This document shows positions 5,046-15,126 of a stretch of 63,300 bases of DNA, one piece after another. The notes beneath the pieces were generated by a model that was not told where the DNA came from, searched no databases, and saw only the letters and a list, made by a program, of their open reading frames with translations. Each line of letters begins with the position of its first letter. Position 1 is the first letter of the stretch. This stretch comes from Alphaproteobacteria bacterium (GTDB taxonomy: Bacteria; Pseudomonadota; Alphaproteobacteria; Caulobacterales; Hyphomonadaceae), in contig JAGWYJ010000015.1 in assembly GCA_018969425.1 (NCBI GenBank), positions 2,501 to 65,800 on the forward strand, written 5' to 3'. The translations under genes were made by a program, and so were the position numbers.

Positions 5046-6489
5046 GTCAGATTCCTCGTCATCACCCACCGCAACAGATCCAACCCGAGCCTATTTTCTC
5101 TGCGGCGTCGGCGGTAGCGGAATGTTGCCGCTCGCGCTCATTCTTCGCGCCCGGGGCCATGAGGTGGCGGGCTCAGACCGATCCCTCGACGCCGGTCGGA
5201 CCTCGGAGAAATTCTCGTTTCTGGAGAAACGAGGCGTCCGGCTCTATCCTCAGGATGGAAGCGGGCTGACACGTCCAGACCAGATCCTCGTGACATCAGC
5301 GGCGGTAGAGGACACTGTTCCCGATGTAGCGGCGGCCGGAAGGCTGGGCTGCCGGCGCATGACCCGCGCAGAGCTCCTCGCCGAGCTTCTCAACAAGGCC
5401 CCGCTCAGCATTGCGGTCGCGGGAACGTCTGGAAAGTCGACGACGACCGGAATGATCGGTTGGATCCTCTACGCCCTGAGGCAGGATCCGACGATCATGA
5501 ACGGGGCGGTGATGAAGAATTTCGTATCGGGAGATTCGCCCTTCGCCTCGGCCATCGTCGGAGAAGGAAGGATTTTCGTGAGCGAGGTGGACGAAAGCGA
5601 CGGATCCATCGCGCTCTACTCCCCGTCTGTCGCCGTGCTCAACAACATCGCCCTAGATCACAAGACGATGGACGAGTTGAGACTTCTGTTCTCGGAGTTT
5701 CTGAAGCGCTCTGAAAAAGTCGTTCTCAATCTGGACAATGAGGAAACGAGGGCTCTCGCAGTCGGGCGGGACGCCTCCCATTGCCTGACCTACTCCCTCG
5801 AGGATCCGTCCGCCTCCCTTTACGGACACGACATCGTTTCAGCCCCGGACGGCATGTCATGCCTCGTGACCGAAGCAGAAACAGGTCAGGTGGTGAGGGT
5901 CTGCCTGCAGACGCCGGGACGGCACAACCTCTCAAATGGCCTCGCCGCTCTTGCAGCTGCGCGAGCCTGCGGAATCGGACTTCGGGATGCGGCGAACGCT
6001 TTGATGAACTTCACAGGCATTCGCCGTCGCCTGGAGATCGCGGGCGTGGCGCGCGATATTACGGTGATCGACGATTTCGCGCACAATCCGGACAAGATAG
6101 CCGCCACCCTCGCCACCCTTCGCACATTCAGGGCCCGCCTGCTCATCATGTGGCAGCCGCACGGCTTCGGTCCGCTCAGACAGATGAAATCGGCATTTGT
6201 CGAAGGCTTCCTGCGGGATATGGCGCCGCGCGACATCCTGCTGATGCCTGAACCTGTCTATCACGGCGGAACAGTGGATCGATCCGTCAGCAGTCAGGAT
6301 GTGACGGAAGCGATCTCCGCTGGAGGACGCACCGCCCTGGCAATGCCCGATCGCGAGGCCTGTCGGCGAAAGCTTCTGCAACTCGCCCAGCCTGGAGACA
6401 TCATTCTCATTATGGGCGCCCGCGACGACACCCTCAGCGAATTCGCCGCATCACTGGTCTCGGACCTGAACGATCCGACAGGAAGATGA
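5044..6489 (+). CDS. Mur ligase family protein (Mpl/MurC-like)
   Basis: About 481 residues with the three Mur ligase domains: N-terminal Rossmann GVGGSGMLPLALILRARGHEVAGSD (residues 21-45), ATP-binding P-loop GTSGKST at residue 127, a central VDESDGSIALYSPSVAVLNNI motif, and the C-terminal HNPDKIAATL region. By family it joins an amino acid or peptide to UDP-N-acetylmuramate. Beside ldcA the most likely role is Mpl-like reuse of recycled murein tripeptide. The P-loop has serine where MurC and Mpl usually have histidine (GTHGKT), so the substrate could differ. No good ribosome site is visible before the ATG at 5044. A TTG at 5035 is an alternative start. Confidence 0.75.
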   Translation: MSDSSSSPTATDPTRAYFLCGVGGSGMLPLALILRARGHEVAGSDRSLDAGRTSEKFSFLEKRGVRLYPQDGSGLTRPDQILVTSAAVEDTVPDVAAAGRLGCRRMTRAELLAELLNKAPLSIAVAGTSGKSTTTGMIGWILYALRQDPTIMNGAVMKNFVSGDSPFASAIVGEGRIFVSEVDESDGSIALYSPSVAVLNNIALDHKTMDELRLLFSEFLKRSEKVVLNLDNEETRALAVGRDASHCLTYSLEDPSASLYGHDIVSAPDGMSCLVTEAETGQVVRVCLQTPGRHNLSNGLAALAAARACGIGLRDAANALMNFTGIRRRLEIAGVARDITVIDDFAHNPDKIAATLATLRTFRARLLIMWQPHGFGPLRQMKSAFVEGFLRDMAPRDILLMPEPVYHGGTVDRSVSSQDVTEAISAGGRTALAMPDREACRRKLLQLAQPGDIILIMGARDDTLSEFAASLVSDLNDPTGR

Positions 6490-6530
6490 CCTGACCGGAC
6501 GCCCCATTTCGGAGCGCTGCTGCTGGTGTC

Positions 6531-7142
6531 TCAGCGTCCGCCAAGCTTTTTTTCAAGTTCTTCGAGACGGGCTCGCAACACGCTCAGCTCGTCAGCCTCC
6601 GAGGATTTCCCCTCCCCCTGAGATGGAGGTTCACGAGCCGGAGCGACAGGCTCGCCCCCCGCCGGCGGGCGCTGCGTCCAGGCCGACGGACCGGCAGCCT
6701 GGCTCCAAAGGCTCGCAAGACGCTGCTGATGCTGACGCTGAAGATCCTGCATGGCGGCAGGATCAAAGACCGACCATGGCTGCGAAAAACTGTTCGTCAT
6801 CTGATTGGTGATCTGCTCCTGCTGAGCGCGCATAAACGCCATGGACTGCTCAAAAAGTCCTGTCATCATCTCAGAGGCCTTGCTTTGGTGCATGCGGATC
6901 ATATCCATCATCAGATCAGACGACAGCATAGCCTGATCCGACCGGTTTTCCTGCTCCATGATAATCTGGAGAAGAACCTGACGGGTGACATCCTCACCGG
7001 TCTCAGTATCTTCGACACGAACCGTCGCGCCCTTACGAATGAGCTCAGCGACATCCGGCAAACGGACATAGCTGCTCGACGACTTATTGTAGAGCTTTCG
7101 GCTTGGATACCGCCTCAGCTCTATCGTGGCCTGATCCGTCAT
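6531..7142 (-). CDS. phaR: Polyhydroxyalkanoate synthesis repressor PhaR
   Basis: 203 residues. The N-terminal PHB accumulation regulator DNA-binding domain is clear (IELRRYPSRKLYNKSSSSYVRLPDVAELIRKG, residues 7-40), followed by the second conserved domain with QIIMEQENR and LMMDMIRMHQSKASEMM. The C-terminus ends in a short coiled coil (LSVLRARLEELEKKL). PhaR represses phasin and often its own gene, binds PHA granules and is released from DNA when polymer accumulates. It lies 34 bases downstream of the alpha/beta hydrolase gene on the same strand, divergent from phaC. Candidate operators are seen upstream of the phasin gene. Confidence 0.92.
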   Translation of the reverse strand: MTDQATIELRRYPSRKLYNKSSSSYVRLPDVAELIRKGATVRVEDTETGEDVTRQVLLQIIMEQENRSDQAMLSSDLMMDMIRMHQSKASEMMTGLFEQSMAFMRAQQEQITNQMTNSFSQPWSVFDPAAMQDLQRQHQQRLASLWSQAAGPSAWTQRPPAGGEPVAPAREPPSQGEGKSSEADELSVLRARLEELEKKLGGR

Positions 7143-7176
7143 ATTCGCCTCTCCGTGCGCCCGTTCTGCGACCCGC

Positions 7177-8028
7177 TCACCGCGTCAGCCAGTCGCCTAC
7201 AGCTCCGTAAAACTGCTGAGGCTGATCTAGCATAAGATAGTGTCGGGCGTCATCGATCCTGAGGCGCCGGCAGTTCGGATGACGTGCGTAAGACGAGAGA
7301 TACGTCTGATCCAGAACCGCTCGCGGCACAGGCGCCCGCCCATCGTGCGCATAGACGACATCCAGACTGGCTCTCATCGACGCAAGATCCGTGCGCAGAT
7401 CAGTGACCATCACCTCCGCCATCACATCCGCCACCATCATCCGGTCTGACGCGAGGCTCCAGCCCGCCACACGCTCCCTCATCTCAGGCGCAGTCACGAG
7501 ACGCTCGCATGTGCGCCGAAGACCCTCGGCATACATATCCGCGTCAGCCGCCATGAAACGCCGTCGGGCGACATCAGCCAGACCAAGAGCCGTCGCAGGT
7601 GTCAGAAAAGGCGAGATCAGGGATGAAAAAAAAGCAGGCGTGTCAGCCACAAGAACCTGCTTGACGGCGTCGGGCTCGACAATCGCCGTCATCATGGCAG
7701 CCAAGCCTCCCATTGAGTGACCGACGATCGCAGCGTCTCCCGCGGTTCGCTCACGAATATAACTCGCGAGTTCTGCGGCCAGGGGTCGAAGAAAATCTCC
7801 GCGCCGCCGACCTGCCGGCGGCGCCAGACCTGAAAATCCGCGAATCTGAACCAGATGAACCCGCACCCCTGAGCCGAGGCGCTCCAGGGCGCCGTCCCAG
7901 CACTCGGCGGAAGCTGCGAGACCATGGACGAAGACCACATCCCGGCCGCGCCCCTCCGTGCGCACACGAAACAGATGTCCCTCGCGCCAATCCGCGTCAG
8001 GCTTCCGGAACCAGCTGAACAGCTTCAT
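7177..8028 (-). CDS. Alpha/beta hydrolase
   Basis: 283 residues with the alpha/beta hydrolase fold: oxyanion-hole VFVHGLAAS near residue 33, nucleophile elbow GHSMGG with Ser105, and a C-terminal histidine in DDARHYLMLDQP near residue 264. No signal peptide, so it is cytoplasmic. The first gene of a two-gene unit with phaR and divergent from phaC, so a role in PHB turnover (oligomer hydrolase, thioesterase) is plausible, but the sequence itself does not show substrate. AGAGG lies immediately before the ATG. Confidence 0.8.
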   Translation of the reverse strand: MKLFSWFRKPDADWREGHLFRVRTEGRGRDVVFVHGLAASAECWDGALERLGSGVRVHLVQIRGFSGLAPPAGRRRGDFLRPLAAELASYIRERTAGDAAIVGHSMGGLAAMMTAIVEPDAVKQVLVADTPAFFSSLISPFLTPATALGLADVARRRFMAADADMYAEGLRRTCERLVTAPEMRERVAGWSLASDRMMVADVMAEVMVTDLRTDLASMRASLDVVYAHDGRAPVPRAVLDQTYLSSYARHPNCRRLRIDDARHYLMLDQPQQFYGAVGDWLTR

Positions 8029-8177
8029 CCTCTCGTCCCGCCTACGCTCGGAGACGACCGCAGCGACGGCGGCGTTGCCGTTCCCTCCCTTAAGTCATCG
8101 TCGATAACTTTGGTATAGTTCTTTGAGCCTGAGGCGACGGATGGTACCATTCCGGCCTGACAGGGAGCCGGGCGTCC

Positions 8178-9953
8178 ATGGAGCACCAGGGGGGGATGAG
8201 CGCCTCAAACGCGTTCGAACTGGGACAGAATTTTCAGCGGATCAATCTTCTGCTTCAGCGTCTGGTGGTGGCCCTGTCACGCCGTGAGCTGCGCAACCCG
8301 GGTGTCGAGGGACCGGGACAGTCCTTTCTCATGAAAGCGGCGATGACCCAGGCCGCCAGCCTCTGGTCGAACCCGATGAAAGCCCTCACCGCCCAGATGG
8401 AGTTCTGGCGGAACACGGCGGACCTTTACGCTGAGCTGACCCAGGCCATGCTCAGCGGAGGACGCCATTCAGCGGCGCAGCCGGAAAAGGATGCACGGTT
8501 CAGCGACGAAGACTGGGAGCGTCACCCCTTTTTCTACTATCTGAAGCGCCAGTACCAGATCATGAGCGCTTATCTGGAGACCCTCGCCGAGGGAGCTGAA
8601 GATGAGGACGACCCCCACCATTCTGAACAGGTTCACTTCTTCACCCGGCAACTGGTCGACATGTTCGCCCCGTCGAATTTTCTCGCCTCCAATCCGGTCG
8701 CGATCCGAAAGGCCGTTGAAACAAACGGGGCGTCGCTGGTGGAGGGGCTTGAGAACCTGGTGAAGGACCTCGAGCGCTCCGGCGGCGATCTCCTTGTCAC
8801 GCTTTCAGACCCAGAGGCGTTCCGCGTCGGGGAGACGCTCGCCGTTTCCAATGGCGCGGTGGTGCACGAGACCGATCTGTTCCAGCTGATCCGGTATGAC
8901 GCGACCACGGAAAAGGTCTACTCACGACCGATCCTCTTCATACCTCCGTGGATCAACAAGTTCTACATTCTGGACCTGCAGCCTAAGACTTCGATGGTGA
9001 AATGGCTCACCTCTCAGGGCTTCACAGTCTACATGGTCAGCTGGCGTAATCCGGGTGAGGAGATGCGCGACTGGGGCCTGGACACCTATGTGTTCGACGG
9101 GGTGCTCAGTGCGGCTGAAACAGTCGACAGGATTTCGGGCGGAGAGGGATGCAACATCGTCGGCTACTGCATCGGGGGCACGACGCTGGCCATCGCTCTT
9201 GCCTGGATCGGACGGAACCCCGCCTCCTCTCCGATCAAATCGGCGACCTTCTTCACGGCCCTTACTGACTTTGAGGACCCCGGTCCTCTCAAAGTGTTCA
9301 TCGACGAGAGCTTCGTCGGCGGGATCCTCCTCGAAGCGGGCAGAAAAGGGTATCTCGATCAGCGCATCATGGCGCGGACCTTCAGCTATCTGCGCCCCAA
9401 CGACCTGGTGTACGGACCCGCGGTTAAGGCCTATCTGCTGGGAGAGCCGCCGCCGAAATTCGATCTTCTGTTCTGGAATGAGGATTCCACCCGTCTGCCT
9501 GAACGGATGGCCCGCGAGTACCTGACCCATCTTTACCGGGACAATGACCTCGCGCTCGATCGCTTCCCGCTTAAGGAAAGCCGCATCGGCCTCGGCGACA
9601 TCAAGACGCCGCATTATGTGGTCGCATGCGAAAAGGACCACATCGCTCCGTGGAGGGCCTCGTTCAAGGGACTGGCCCGCGCTGGCGGCGACGGTCGTTT
9701 CGTTCTGGCCCAGAGCGGACACATCGCGGGCATCGTGAACCATCCCGATCGCCGGAAATATGGGTATTGGGTGAGTAACGACACCCCGAACGACCTCGAC
9801 GCATGGAAAGCTGGCGCGGAGCCCCATGAGGGCTCCTGGTGGCCGGACTGGACCCGATGGCTCTCCCGCAGATCCGGTCGCAAGCAGGCGGCGTCATGGC
9901 CCGAAACCCTGCCCCGTATCGAACCGGCGCCGGGTCGGTATGTAACGGAATAG
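8178..9953 (+). CDS. phaC: Class I poly(3-hydroxyalkanoate) synthase
   Basis: 591 residues, the size of class I PhaC. It polymerises (R)-3-hydroxyacyl-CoA into storage polyester on granules. The lipase-like box GYCIGG carries the catalytic Cys331, with the catalytic His515 in SGHIAGI and a downstream WWPDW typical of the family. The N-terminal regulatory domain (about residues 60-190) and the strand RPILFIPPWINKFYILDL are also diagnostic. ATG 8178 has AGGGAG about ten bases upstream; ATG 8196 is an alternative. It is transcribed away from the hydrolase-phaR pair and towards the phasin gene, which has its own promoter. Confidence 0.95.
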   Translation: MEHQGGMSASNAFELGQNFQRINLLLQRLVVALSRRELRNPGVEGPGQSFLMKAAMTQAASLWSNPMKALTAQMEFWRNTADLYAELTQAMLSGGRHSAAQPEKDARFSDEDWERHPFFYYLKRQYQIMSAYLETLAEGAEDEDDPHHSEQVHFFTRQLVDMFAPSNFLASNPVAIRKAVETNGASLVEGLENLVKDLERSGGDLLVTLSDPEAFRVGETLAVSNGAVVHETDLFQLIRYDATTEKVYSRPILFIPPWINKFYILDLQPKTSMVKWLTSQGFTVYMVSWRNPGEEMRDWGLDTYVFDGVLSAAETVDRISGGEGCNIVGYCIGGTTLAIALAWIGRNPASSPIKSATFFTALTDFEDPGPLKVFIDESFVGGILLEAGRKGYLDQRIMARTFSYLRPNDLVYGPAVKAYLLGEPPPKFDLLFWNEDSTRLPERMAREYLTHLYRDNDLALDRFPLKESRIGLGDIKTPHYVVACEKDHIAPWRASFKGLARAGGDGRFVLAQSGHIAGIVNHPDRRKYGYWVSNDTPNDLDAWKAGAEPHEGSWWPDWTRWLSRRSGRKQAASWPETLPRIEPAPGRYVTE

Positions 9954-9988
9954 GCGCACGACGCCGTCCGGAGACCCTATTATCGCAC

Positions 9989-10034
9989 TTGCGGCAAAAT
10001 TTCTCTTGCCTTTGCCGCGACGCGGCATTATAAG
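9989..10034 (+). promoter_or_regulatory. Phasin promoter with candidate PhaR operators
   Basis: A -35 box TTGCCT (10006-10011) and a -10 box TATAAG (10029-10034) are separated by 17 bases. Almost the whole spacer is a perfect 15-bp palindrome, TGCCGCG-A-CGCGGCA (10013-10027). A second, 9-bp palindrome TTGCGGCAA lies just upstream (9989-9997). PhaR proteins are known to bind TGC/GCA-rich dyads at phasin promoters, and phaR is 3 kb away, so repression by PhaR is the likely meaning. This is inferred from position and base pattern only. Confidence 0.65.
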
Positions 10035-10063
10035 TTGGCCAACGTCGCAAGAGGATGTCTGCC

Positions 10064-10489
10064 ATGAACCCGATGACCGAGATGTTCGACTTCAACAAGA
10101 ACATGGAGGCTTTCGCCAAATTCTATCCCGATATGGCGGGTGCGCCGCCGGTCAAGGCGATGGCGGACATGGCGGAAAAGTATCGGACAGTCACGCTCGA
10201 GGCGATGAACCGCAATATGGAGCTGACCACGGCCTGGATGCGGGACGCGGCGCGCGATGCTGCGACGCTCATGACCGCCGACACCAGCCCAGACGCATAC
10301 GCGAGGAAGGCCGGAGAAATGGCGACCAGCGCCATTCAGGACCTGCCCGCACGTCTCATGGCCTACGCTGATGTCGCTCGAAAGGCGCAGGCGGGTCTTA
10401 TGGAAACGGTTCTGCCCGCAGCCGCTCGACCGGCCGAATCGGCTTCGGAGGCTCCCAAGCCGGCTCGGCCCGCTCGGAAAACTGCTTAA
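10064..10489 (+). CDS. phaP: Phasin family protein
   Basis: About 141 residues, mostly amphipathic helix rich in Ala, Met and Glu (EAMNRNMELTTAWMRDAARDAATLM), ending in an Ala/Pro/Lys tail of the kind seen on granule-associated phasins. Phasins coat PHB granules and control their number and size. ATG 10064 is preferred: AGAGG ends nine bases upstream, whereas the ATG at 10055 abuts it. A strong promoter with internal palindrome precedes the gene and a rho-independent terminator follows, so it forms a single-gene unit. Confidence 0.85.
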   Translation: MNPMTEMFDFNKNMEAFAKFYPDMAGAPPVKAMADMAEKYRTVTLEAMNRNMELTTAWMRDAARDAATLMTADTSPDAYARKAGEMATSAIQDLPARLMAYADVARKAQAGLMETVLPAAARPAESASEAPKPARPARKTA

Positions 10490-12418: not shown

Positions 12419-12475
12419 GCCCAACAGGCTCATCGCCCGCTGCCCAGGATTCTCGGGCGGCAAATTCCCAATCAT

Positions 12476-12493
12476 CGTTGACGGCTGTCAACG
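12476..12493. promoter_or_regulatory. Inverted repeat upstream of dodecin
   Basis: CGTTGAC-GGCT-GTCAACG is a perfect 7-bp inverted repeat with a 4-base spacer, 48 bases before the dodecin start. It contains TTGACG, which resembles a -35 box, so a promoter-overlapping operator is possible. No matching -10 box is obvious. Confidence 0.35.
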
Positions 12494-12540
12494 TCGCGAC
12501 GACGCGGAGAGGTCATCCTCAGCTTTTAGGAGGAGCCATC

Positions 12541-12741
12541 ATGTCTGTCGCCAAAGTGATCGAGATCTGCGCCTCATCCCCGAAGAGCATCGAGGACGCC
12601 GTTCAGGCCGGCATCAGCCGGGCTAGCGAGACTATCGAGCGAATCCAGGGCGTGTGGGTGCAGGATATAAAGGCTGAAATCGAAAACGGACGGATCGCTC
12701 AATGGCGGGTCAATCTCAAAGTGACGTTCGTGCTCAACTAG
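12541..12741 (+). CDS. Dodecin family flavin-binding protein
   Basis: 66 residues, the standard dodecin length. The sequence MSVAKVIEICASSPKS, then ISRASETIERIQGVWVQDI and the end RVNLKVTFVLN follow the family, including the tryptophan that stacks on bound flavin. Dodecins form hollow 12-mers that store or buffer FMN/riboflavin (in some species CoA). The strong AGGAGG six bases before ATG 12541 fixes the start and predicts high expression. Convergent with the membrane protein gene. Confidence 0.9.
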   Translation: MSVAKVIEICASSPKSIEDAVQAGISRASETIERIQGVWVQDIKAEIENGRIAQWRVNLKVTFVLN

Positions 12742-12763
12742 ATCCGGCTCGCCTAAGCGGTAT

Positions 12764-13903
12764 TCAGACGGTCGGGGCCCCGTTTGGCGGGGCGCTGCCC
12801 TCGGCGTTAGGCCCCCCAGAAGATTCCGCATGCGCCGCTTCCAGGGAAATCTTGTCGGCTGCGGCGGCGTCCGCCCAGATCTCGAGAGCGCGCATCATGG
12901 CCACCAGCCAGCTGATCAGGTCGAGAAACAGAGCGCTCGACCACACGAAGATGATGACGATCAGAAGACTTGAAAGAACGATCGCCGCCATCGCAGTCAG
13001 GCGCGCCTTAAGCCACTTGCCGGTCCAGAAGCCCTCGTTTTTTTTCTCCGCCAGCAGAGCCTCAACTTCGGCCTTCCTGTCCGAAAGAGCCTGCTCGGCC
13101 TGCTCGCGGGCCCCCTCGACAGAAACAGCTTCCGCTTCCGCGAGCTGAGCCGCGTCCGCTTTGGAAAAGCTCGTTCGGGCAAGGTCAATGTAACGCCCCA
13201 GCACCCGACGATAATCCTCGCAATCGGCCGTTTCGAAGCCGGTAAACTCGGGCCCCGGACAAAGAGAGAGTTCACCTTCAACCGTGCCTGCGATGGCATC
13301 GATATCTTCAAGGCTGACGGCTTCCTGAAGTTGCTGGATGATTCCGCCGCTGTAAGCAGCATTATCGGAAAACGCCTTCAACGCCGCACCCGCAGCATCG
13401 CTCTGTCGTCGAGCCTCTTCGGAAGCCTTTCGTGCGCGCTCCTGAAAGTCGGGTGCGGCCGTCTCAGCAACCTTTTCTTCGGCCTCGGTGATCGAAGCCT
13501 GAGCGAGCTTTATCTGTTCGTTCCGCTCAGCCTCGCGCTCAATTTCAGACTTCGGGTAGAGCGACATTACGCCCGCTGACGCTCCCGCTGCTACGATCAG
13601 CAGGCAGGCGATAAGAACAAGGAAGTAGTAGATGTCGCTGATCTTCTTGAGCGTGAAGACGCGCGAACCCGCGAGCGTCGCGTCGTCCGCTTCAGCTCCC
13701 AGGATGACATTCACAGCTCGCCGGAGAAAGATGAAAGGCGTCGTGAAGATGGCGCAGAAAACCCGCCACAGGGCGAGCAGGACCTCGATCATGCGCCCCT
13801 GGCTCAGAAGAGCGACAAACAGCGCCGCTGACACGAGGAACATGACGCCGGTCAACCAGAGATTATCCTGCGCCAGCTCGAAAATATCCGTCACCGTTTC
13901 CAT
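12764..13903 (-). CDS. Membrane protein with periplasmic coiled coil, function unknown
   Basis: 379 residues. Predicted membrane segments at about residues 10-30, 38-60, 90-115 and 300-330. Between the third and fourth lies a long hydrophilic region with strong coiled-coil character (AERNEQIKLAQASITEAEEKV, and again REQAEQALSDRKAEVEALL) around a small cysteine pair (SLCPGPEF, ETADCEDY). The C-terminus is a low-complexity Gly/Pro/Ala tail. I recognise no family. ATG 13903 is chosen because the upstream alternative at 13924 adds only a short polar piece. It is convergent with dodecin and nothing in the context gives a role. Confidence 0.65.
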   Translation of the reverse strand: METVTDIFELAQDNLWLTGVMFLVSAALFVALLSQGRMIEVLLALWRVFCAIFTTPFIFLRRAVNVILGAEADDATLAGSRVFTLKKISDIYYFLVLIACLLIVAAGASAGVMSLYPKSEIEREAERNEQIKLAQASITEAEEKVAETAAPDFQERARKASEEARRQSDAAGAALKAFSDNAAYSGGIIQQLQEAVSLEDIDAIAGTVEGELSLCPGPEFTGFETADCEDYRRVLGRYIDLARTSFSKADAAQLAEAEAVSVEGAREQAEQALSDRKAEVEALLAEKKNEGFWTGKWLKARLTAMAAIVLSSLLIVIIFVWSSALFLDLISWLVAMMRALEIWADAAAADKISLEAAHAESSGGPNAEGSAPPNGAPTV

Positions 13904-14272
13904 GACGCAGCCACTCCCCTTCAATGAGCGCCTGTCGCCGACGCTTCCTTCTGGATGACACTAGCGGGAACCCCGGCCCGGGGTCCAGAAGCGACCCGTA
14001 TCCCGCCTCTCCAGACGCCATAATGAGCCCTTGAGCAGCTGCACGCACTCACCGCCTCTGTGAGCGCGCCGCCCTGTCGGCAGGAGGCCGGCCAGGGACG
14101 TGGATAAACGTCGGTTATCTGGTGGGTTCGCCCGGCCGGTAGGAAAGTCACGTTTCGTTTGCGGGCCTCGACGTTCCCGAAAACCCGCCGGAGGACCGCC
14201 CGCCGCGCGAGATCTGGCGGGAGACATTCATCGGGTACATGCCCCGCAAGTCAACGAGCATGCGACCGGCTT
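13904..14272. other. Gene-poor stretch downstream of the split tRNA
   Basis: About 370 bases with no convincing gene. On the minus strand a short frame (ATG 14261 to stop at 14148, 37 codons, basic) begins just after the tRNA but has no ribosome site or recognisable product. No clear terminator for the tRNA-Leu transcript is seen. The left end should contain the promoter of the membrane protein gene. Confidence 0.4.
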
Positions 14273-14595
14273 TGGTGCGGGCGGCCGGAATCGAACCGGC
14301 ACGGGTCTCCCCTACGGATTTTCGTACCACTTCGACTTTCGCCGCCCCTGCCGTCGGGCCATCAGGCCCGGCGGCCGGTTCGTGGTCTGGACTATCCCTT
14401 CGCCTTAGTCGTCTCCGACCTTAGGCGCTGCCCGTCTAGTCTCTACACCTTCCCTTCAGCTCAGGAGCGAAGGGCTTGGCTCGGGATCGCCATCTGACAG
14501 GGTTCCCCGAATTTGAGCAGTTCTGCACCGGATGTTTCCAGCCGGGCACTCAAGTCGTTCAAGTCCGTTGCGTCTACCAGTTTCGCCACGCCCGC
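14273..14595 (-). tRNA. tRNA-Leu(UAA), interrupted by a group I intron
   Basis: Read on the minus strand, 14595-14561 is the 5' exon and 14322-14273 the 3' exon. Acceptor arms GCGGGCG and CGCCCGC pair perfectly and the genomic CCA is encoded (14275-14273). The anticodon stem ACGGA/TCCGT pairs, with loop C-T-T|A-A-A-A, giving anticodon UAA. A long variable arm (GGGG..CCC) and the T arm GCCGG-TTCGATT-CCGGC fit class II tRNA-Leu. The two exons join to an 85-nt tRNA after removal of 238 bases between anticodon positions 34 and 35. Without splicing the tRNA could not read UUA codons. Confidence 0.95.
14323..14560 (-). ncRNA. Group I intron (IC3-like) in tRNA-Leu(UAA)
   Basis: 238 nt with no internal protein gene. 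The 5' exon ends ACUU and an internal guide GAGU (just after GAACGACTT at the intron start) pairs with it, leaving the conserved U-G wobble at the 5' splice site. The last intron base is G. The catalytic core is readable: GATCCCGAGCCAAGCC, then the R element AGAGACTAGACGG and the S element GGATAGTCC; GACTA in R pairs with TAGTC in S to form P7. A GAAA tetraloop (GGCGAAAGTC) lies near the 3' end. From memory, the core closely follows the cyanobacterial/plastid tRNA-Leu(UAA) intron, including GAGCCAAGCC and AGAGACT-GACGG, and uses the identical insertion site. Expected to self-splice. Confidence 0.93.
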
Positions 14596-14709: not shown

Positions 14710-15126
14710 ATGATCGTCTCTCGCCCTCGCCGCCGTCTCTGTGCAGTCCTTCTAGCCGTGGCGTATCTCGTTCCTGCGGAAGGGCATGGACAACAGCCCT
14801 CCGCAACGCAGGTCGAGCCGAAACCGGCCCCATCATTCGAAAGCCTGATGGAACTTGCCGGCGTCCTGGGCGAGGCCCATGCGGCGCGATCGGCCTGCGC
14901 CGGCGAAGATGATCAGACCTGGAGAGGGTACATGCAGCAGATGCTCGACCTCGAAGGCCCCTCCGGATCAAATCGGGGAGCTCTTACAAGCGCCTTCAAT
15001 CAGGGCTACAGGCGCCAGATCCGGATCACCCCCTCATGCTCGCCGGAAACCCGGGCTCAGGAAGCGGCGATCGCCGCCCGCGGACGCGCGCTCTCGGACC
15101 GGATCGCACGCGACTATCTCGGCTGA
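14710..15126 (+). CDS. TIGR02301-type small secreted protein
   Basis: 138 residues with an N-terminal signal peptide (RPRRRLCAVLLAVAYLVPAEG). The mature part has the pattern of an alphaproteobacterial conserved family (TIGR02301): LMELAGVLGEAHAARSACAG, WRGYMQQMLDLE, FNQGYRRQIRITPSCSPETR and the closing LSDRIARDYL. Two conserved cysteines could form a disulfide in the periplasm. The function of the family is not known. The gene is divergent from tRNA-Leu and convergent with the TPP enzyme. Confidence 0.75.
   Translation: MIVSRPRRRLCAVLLAVAYLVPAEGHGQQPSATQVEPKPAPSFESLMELAGVLGEAHAARSACAGEDDQTWRGYMQQMLDLEGPSGSNRGALTSAFNQGYRRQIRITPSCSPETRAQEAAIAARGRALSDRIARDYLG

Follow-up and report, generated by a model that had tools for sequence, protein, structure and literature searches.

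The window, by which we mean the whole 63,300-nucleotide stretch analysed here, carries a tRNA-Leu(UAA) gene split by a group I intron that, judged from sequence, belongs to a proteobacterial and acidobacterial pool and not to the cyanobacterial tRNA-Leu lineage. At many related loci, intron-bearing tRNA-Leu(UAA) genes follow a gene for a tyrosine-recombinase-like protein, and most of these lie next to native tRNA-Leu(UAA) genes that have been broken in the anticodon loop. We therefore suggest that such introns are carried by mobile elements which disable the tRNA-Leu(UAA) of their host and bring a replacement for it. To the explanation as a whole (a self-splicing intron in the sole UAA gene, drawn from the proteobacterial/acidobacterial pool, carried in an element-borne replacement and brought to the window by that route) we assign a probability of about 70%.

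The interrupted gene and its ribozyme core

The gene occupies 14273–14595 on the minus strand. With introns allowed, ARAGORN reports a tRNA-Leu (class II, anticodon UAA) in which 238 nt of intron follow exon base 35, between U34 and A35. A preliminary description of this DNA was exact both in its coordinates and in placing the insertion at 34/35. ARAGORN and inspection by eye agree on a 35-nt 5′ exon (14561–14595, minus; last bases GGACTT, ending in U34) and a 50-nt 3′ exon (14273–14322, minus; AAAATCCGT...CCA). The perfect exon pairing claimed in that description is borne out by eye: the acceptor stem has 7 bp (GCGGGCG/CGCCCGC) and the anticodon stem (ACGGA/UCCGU) carries the loop CUU|AAAA, where the bar marks the intron site.

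Default ARAGORN does not call the tRNA and an Rfam search at the gathering score does not call the intron, because the RF00028 match reaches 49.8 bits against a cut-off of 50. The covariance search that the preliminary description had proposed as a check nevertheless matches 14570–14379 (minus) over the full model (1–253) with an E-value of 1.2e-11, 0.2 bit below the cut-off, and this is the only RF00028 match in the whole genome. RF00028 is Rfam's one general family for group I introns; IC3 is the subgroup name used in the tRNA-intron literature.

The intron itself (14323–14560, minus) ends in G. When 33 related introns are aligned, two-sided changes that preserve the pairing are seen at 25 of the 52 predicted pairs; the prediction leaves out P7, which is uninformative for covariation since its columns are invariant. 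The internal guide GAGU (14548–14551, minus) forms P1 with exon ACUU and places a U-G pair at the splice site, as read by eye and conserved in the alignment. P3 is formed by CUGCUC (14515–14520, minus) and GGGCAG (14428–14433, minus), according to the alignment and the predicted pairing, and P7 by GACUA (14437–14441, minus) and UAGUC (14390–14394, minus), paired by eye. The U-G at the 5′ splice site, the 3′-terminal G and the P7 reported earlier are all legible by eye, the P1 pair and the terminal G being conserved and the P7 columns invariant among related introns. At 238 nt the intron is too short for a homing (endonuclease) gene. In the pre-tRNA it is predicted to remove itself by two guanosine-dependent steps that join U34 to A35, and UUA decoding in this bacterium would then rest on the intron ribozyme.

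The draft genome (3.245 Mb, 91 contigs, 99.98% complete) holds 41 uninterrupted tRNAs, whose Leu set comprises CAA, UAG, CAG and GAG; the search for another functional tRNA-Leu(UAA) among them found none, which leaves the interrupted gene as the sole UAA copy found in the assembly. Genes for Ile-GAT, Ala-TGC and Thr-TGT were not found among the 41 either, likely because of assembly gaps, and a second tRNA-Leu(UAA) could for this reason lie in an unassembled stretch. That the window gene is dead, its intron unspliced and UUA decoded via such a copy, would suit a 91-contig draft with these omissions. It is nonetheless most improbable in view of the intact exon stems, the invariant core and the covariation; moreover, the congener G340 likewise has no intronless UAA match, and UUA codons are in use (2 of 2702 codons in seven window ORFs).

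Lineage and distribution of the intron

Cyanobacterial tRNA-Leu(UAA) introns share with that of the window the host gene, the U34/A35 insertion point and the kind of ribozyme core, and the preliminary description had called the window intron cyanobacterial-type. Comparison over 198 columns, in a sample of bacterial introns, does not sustain the label. Median identity is 77.3% to 45 alphaproteobacterial and 78.1% to 15 acidobacterial tRNA-Leu introns, but 55.3% to 19 cyanobacterial ones; over the same columns five tRNA-Lys and two tRNA-Thr introns of Alphaproteobacteria are ∼ 70% identical, and the two alphaproteobacterial tRNA-Arg introns compared are 60–64% identical. In the 198-column tree the cyanobacterial tRNA-Leu introns form one clade of their own (branch support 98/96), a separate lineage from that of the window; in another of the trees, tRNA-Ile introns form a clade distant from the window intron. 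Forcing the window pair into the cyanobacterial clade is rejected (AU p 0.014, 198 columns), whereas placing it beside that clade is not (AU p 0.41) on 127 core columns, a shorter alignment that lacked power. A single clade of all tRNA-Leu(UAA) introns is rejected on neither alignment (p 0.22 on 127 columns, p 0.087 on 198).

Tree sets of 197, 118, 109 and 138 rows were prepared by removing long or fragmentary rows and thinning large groups, the 138-row set also by excluding introns longer than 340 nt and as many as four named rows of the betagamma group; the bootstrap was unsettled in all four trees. In the 138-intron tree the window intron groups with that of G340 (L071), with L080 and with the recombinase-linked L051 and L067 (support 76/91). 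The row for the window in this tree and in the recombinase counts below begins 9 nt inside the intron (GACTT recurs), which does not affect the lack of a recombinase at the window.

These data bear on two accounts of how the intron came to sit where it does. Had a tRNA-Leu(UAA) intron lately been acquired from a cyanobacterium, the common insertion point and general core would be explained, and the core columns tolerate such an event (p 0.41), but an identity of 55% against 77%, below even that to the tRNA-Lys and tRNA-Thr introns (70%), a cyanobacterial clade closed at 98/96 and the rejection on 198 columns make it extremely unlikely; the trees and AU tests rule out a cyanobacterial origin as the main reading. 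Of the horizontal transfer suggested earlier, the movement stands, with a linked tyrosine-recombinase-like vehicle (see below), and the cyanobacterial source does not. The other possibility raised, old inheritance from a common ancestor of Cyanobacteria and Pseudomonadota followed by many losses, agrees with the single tRNA-Leu(UAA) clade that neither alignment rejects and with the occupation of the same site in several phyla. However, the intron is patchy (two of 15 genomes in the genus, 36 of 398 in the order), the introns nearest to that of the window come from other families and from Gammaproteobacteria and not from the same-family loci L059, L061 and L062, and some of its kin are linked to mobile DNA; we consider descent of this kind improbable, though somewhat less so than the cyanobacterial transfer.

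In the order Caulobacterales, RF00028 matches 36 of 398 genomes and all 36 matches are tRNA-Leu(UAA) introns at U34/A35 (ARAGORN miscalled L056, L070 and L082 and fused L063 with an upstream fragment; all four were read by eye). A pattern scan returns at least 118 tRNA-Leu intron loci from Cyanobacteria, Alpha-, Beta- and Gammaproteobacteria and Acidobacteriota, so the introns cannot be called rare outside cyanobacteria and plastids, as had been supposed. An intronless tRNA-Leu(UAA), confirmed by ARAGORN, is present in 13 of the 15 genomes of the genus; none was found in the window genome or G340. RF00028 matches 31 of 385 genomes of the class, 41 of 274 in the class of Niveibacterium, 25 of 79 cyanobacteria and 10 of 149 acidobacteria. 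Among the loci read, the host tRNAs in the first of these sets include Leu(UAA), Arg(CCU), Lys, Thr and Leu(CAA), and those in the second are mostly Ile(CAU). The further alphaproteobacterial hosts are Lys (L240, L246, L248, L258, L262), Thr-like (L257, L260) and Leu CAA (L247), assigned partly by eye, some being miscalled by ARAGORN. Two loci are at odds with their genome labels: the intron of L123 ('Tatlockia' MAG) groups within the cyanobacterial clade, and the tRNA-Leu of L237 (from G486, a member of the class) looks cyanobacterial by eye, though both genomes are labelled proteobacterial; both are probably misbinned contigs.

The tRNA-Leu intron pattern also occurs in 53 viral contigs of IMG/VR (L399–L451), 51 of which parse as tRNA-Leu(UAA) with an intron of 196–263 nt. 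Some of the intron-bearing contigs measure 328–347 kb, and other tRNA or tmRNA genes lie near the intron-bearing tRNA in eight of the ten examined. According to a 2014 review, the phage introns then known were all in protein-coding genes (PMC3984707).

Recombinase-linked introns and split native tRNA-Leu(UAA) genes

At L360, in a genome of the window's family (G185), a tRNA-Leu 5′ half ending GGGGACTTAAAA is followed by a gene for a 436-aa integrase-like protein and then by an intron-bearing tRNA-Leu(UAA). A tblastn search from this protein, and then a profile made from the matches, located the recombinase upstream of the intron-bearing tRNA at 35 of the 137 distinct loci from outside the cyanobacteria, 34 times within 150 nt. 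The 137 are loci with at least 400 nt upstream, with 18 identical-intron pairs merged; five of 203 loci (L144, L252, L255, L304, L334) were dropped from the profile search. The recombinase was not seen at 102 of the 137 within the flanks available, and is decayed or partial at L057, L113, L168, L187 and L256. Cyanobacterial intron loci differ in this respect from the relatives of the window, with no profile match at any of 38; the profile likewise found nothing at 46 controls, where the tRNA-Leu match is uninterrupted, or at 39 loci whose introns lie in other tRNAs. The controls include five tRNA-Leu(CAA) matches (L207, L209, L210, L215, L220), two 5′ fragments beside intron-bearing genes (L227, L231) and a lone 5′ half (L345), and the first 30 of them have only ∼ 1.5 kb of flank each. 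No recombinase was found on the tRNA's strand in the 51 intron-bearing IMG/VR contigs.

The best recombinase ORF lies on the tRNA's strand in all 38 rows and ends 20–77 nt before the tRNA in 36 of them (L143, −145; L185, −3640). A native tRNA-Leu 5′ half, extending up to the anticodon loop CTTAAAA, is present in 27 of the 38 (five of the other 11 offered < 180 nt to inspect). In all 27, only one to four of the five anticodon-stem pairs form behind this half, which means that the native tRNA is not rebuilt; at L054, L129 and L241 it runs into the T-arm and CCA end of a different tRNA, whose acceptor strand is mismatched.

The association also holds across genomes of the order. Forty-four of 398 have a recombinase match at an E-value of 1e-20 or better, some of these matches being partial or 31–36% identical: 19 of the 36 genomes with the intron versus 25 of the 362 others (Fisher p 3e-11). 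The match lies within 6 kb of the intron in 13 genomes. Over the tree of 138 introns, presence of the recombinase changes 27 times in a scattered fashion, so there is no single recombinase-bearing intron lineage.

R263, K295, R359 and Y391 of the protein are invariant in 31 aligned rows (the reference and 30 others). They may be the catalytic residues of a tyrosine recombinase, in which Tyr356 would stand for the usual box-II His and a box-III His is not evident. Pfam PF13102 scores above and PF00589 below its cut-off, and there is no PDB sequence match. A phage origin of the recombinase finds no backing in 50,697 phage records, where tblastn gave no match; 23 plasmid records do match, and in four the alignment covers 80% or more of the query. 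One genome (G181) has four recombinase matches, two of which flank an intron-bearing tRNA-Leu on either side (L464). An acidobacterial MAG (L154) carries two intron-bearing tRNA-Leu(UAA) genes in tandem, ∼ 3.1 kb apart, each after CTTAAAAGTCCGATCGGGTCA and the first preceded by a full tRNA-Leu 5′ half; no recombinase-profile match lies in the 8 kb examined, and this may be a second type of element.

Both native tRNA halves are kept in three elements (L359, L454 and L459), where their acceptor stems pair and CTTAAAA stands at both ends. The L359 element measures 3.6 kb, and no recombinase was seen in it; that at L454 (G049) measures 14.0 kb and that at L459 (G290) 11.9 kb, the latter with its recombinase ∼ 3.6 kb before the tRNA. 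These are the only elements with both ends resolved, the right end of most others not being found within the stretches examined. Some relatives of the window thus combine a split native tRNA, a short shared core and a replacement tRNA of the same isotype, in full in these three and as the left half in the 27 rows above. Cargo at L359 (5966–8594) includes AbiEi-like and HipA-like genes; at L358, HipA-like and GajA/GajB-like genes lie beside the intron-bearing tRNA (5688–10090).

While the linkage and the split native genes in relatives are plain from the sequences, how the elements work is conjecture from their layout. We propose that they would enter the resident tRNA-Leu(UAA) by recombination at its anticodon loop, CTTAAAA, splitting the gene, and would supply behind the tyrosine-recombinase-like gene a complete, intron-bearing replacement. 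The replacement lacks a continuous core because its intron lies inside the same seven bases (CTT|AAAA), and it should hence cease to be a target.

The same recombinase family also precedes intact, intronless tRNA-Leu(CAA) genes, at six of 30 loci read (L377, L386, L393–L396) and at L465 in the congener G340, and an element of this sort therefore does not need an intron. Anticodon loop or stem is altered in four of the six replacements: loop base 32 is T, not C, in L377, L395 and L396, and the stem is altered in L386. The loop is the usual one in L393 and L394. A broken native tRNA-Leu(CAA) 5′ half is present at L386, L396 and L465. The intron would then be one of several ways in which a replacement can differ from its target. 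We tentatively speculate, with rather less confidence than we place in the explanation as a whole, that mobile DNA uses the group I intron to make its replacement gene immune, such that neither the element nor its rivals can recut the replacement, and that lone genes like the one in the window are leftovers of invasion.

Arrival at the window locus and relation to known systems

In all 13 genomes of the genus that have an intronless tRNA-Leu(UAA), it adjoins a moeA-like gene (names by eye), and the window locus is for this reason the native one. On the 5′ side of the tRNA the flank is native, with a DUF2385 gene (14710–15126, plus) matched at the same place in the intronless G229, and the 5′ exon is identical to that of the intronless congener G244. 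On the other side, the gap between the moeA-like frame and the tRNA is 4 nt in G244 and 79 nt in G229, and in the window an insert of 1.85 kb (12419–14272) extends from the tRNA 3′ end to the moeA-like gene. The insert is common to G340 only, with no blastn match in 14 stretches of 13 other congeners, and contains a 386-aa ORF (12764–13924, minus) without a Pfam or NCBIfam match. In the 3′ exon, the variable arm differs from those of all 13 intronless congeners and resembles the arms of intron-bearing genes in other families. Since the arm differs and the 1.85 kb occur only with the intron, more than the intron must have arrived.

We infer that the window intron arrived by an element of the kind described above, of which the 1.85-kb insert is a possible remnant. 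Most likely the recombinase was lost after such an arrival, or the intron-bearing gene was copied from an element into the native locus. If an element's two 35-nt 5′ halves recombined with each other, the recombinase would be deleted; cargo and an intron-bearing tRNA would remain beside a native 5′ flank, an arrangement that fits the window. A search of the window genome found no recombinase match anywhere, blastn detected no left-over tRNA 5′ half at the locus, the window contains no displaced native 3′ half (by blastn, and by local alignment that did not exceed shuffled sequences) and the insert contains no TTAAAA core.

Simple exchange with an intron-bearing gene fits the locus nearly as well. 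Reverse splicing, or homologous exchange of the resident gene with an incoming intron-bearing tRNA-Leu, could have brought the intron there with no recombinase element involved, which would account directly for the native synteny, the 5′ exon shared with G244 and the genome's want of a recombinase match; many other intron loci also lack a recombinase, and intron copies exist on viral contigs. Such an arrival sits less easily with a variable arm unlike those of the 13 intronless congeners and like those of intron-bearing genes in other families, with 1.85 kb beside the tRNA that are found only with the intron, and with nearest introns outside the genus that include the recombinase-linked L051 and L067. 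We regard it as a real possibility, though a doubtful one, and retain arrival by an element as the preferred reading. Elsewhere in the genus, a lone tRNA-Leu(UAA) 5′ half lies on one strand at ∼ 5021 of L345 (G361), the match being lost after the anticodon loop; no recombinase match lies in the 10 kb examined, an intact copy (L344) is found elsewhere in the genome, and the half may be the footprint of an integration of this type.

Some proteobacterial tRNAs are known to be interrupted in the anticodon loop by a group I intron, albeit in other tRNAs and at other splice positions: the tRNA-Arg(CCU) intron of Bartonella bacilliformis, which is reported to splice in vivo and in vitro (PMC7717549), and introns in tRNA-Ile(CAU) (PMC3984707, PMC8450103). 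Those portions of tRNA-intron reviews and a tool paper that were accessible name cyanobacterial introns in tRNA-Leu and tRNA-fMet and proteobacterial introns, the latter without tRNA-Leu (PMC4033280, PMC3984707, PMC8450103). In the open-access literature we recognised no report of tRNA-Leu(UAA) introns in Pseudomonadota or of a recombinase linked to them, which does not establish their absence from print. The window intron itself is of a known kind; what appears to be new is the recombinase-linked, intron-bearing replacement tRNA.

The closest known mechanism is tRNA-dependent lysogeny of actinophages, in which, as far as the accessible part of the report goes, the replacement tRNA is described with no mention of an intron (Guerrero-Bustamante and Hatfull, 2024, PMC10865867). 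The elements considered here differ in that their replacement has a group I intron splitting the core and in that the carriers are known from sequence, not as phages. The tycheposons of Prochlorococcus, tRNA-associated elements with a tyrosine recombinase, are similar by description. Randau and Soll proposed, in an archaeal context and as cited in a later paper, that disrupted tRNA genes guard against the integration of mobile elements (cited in PMC4390854). Their idea shares with ours that interruption makes a tRNA gene ill suited to integration; unlike in the archaeal setting, the integrating element here itself brings the intron-bearing gene.

For annotation, default ARAGORN and the Rfam cut-off together overlook the only tRNA-Leu(UAA) found in the window genome. 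If the proposed explanation is true, it would join tRNA-dependent integration and the protection of tRNA genes by introns, two ideas known apart, and would show what carries ORF-less tRNA introns and why selection favours them, so that their patchy spread, long a puzzle, could be understood.
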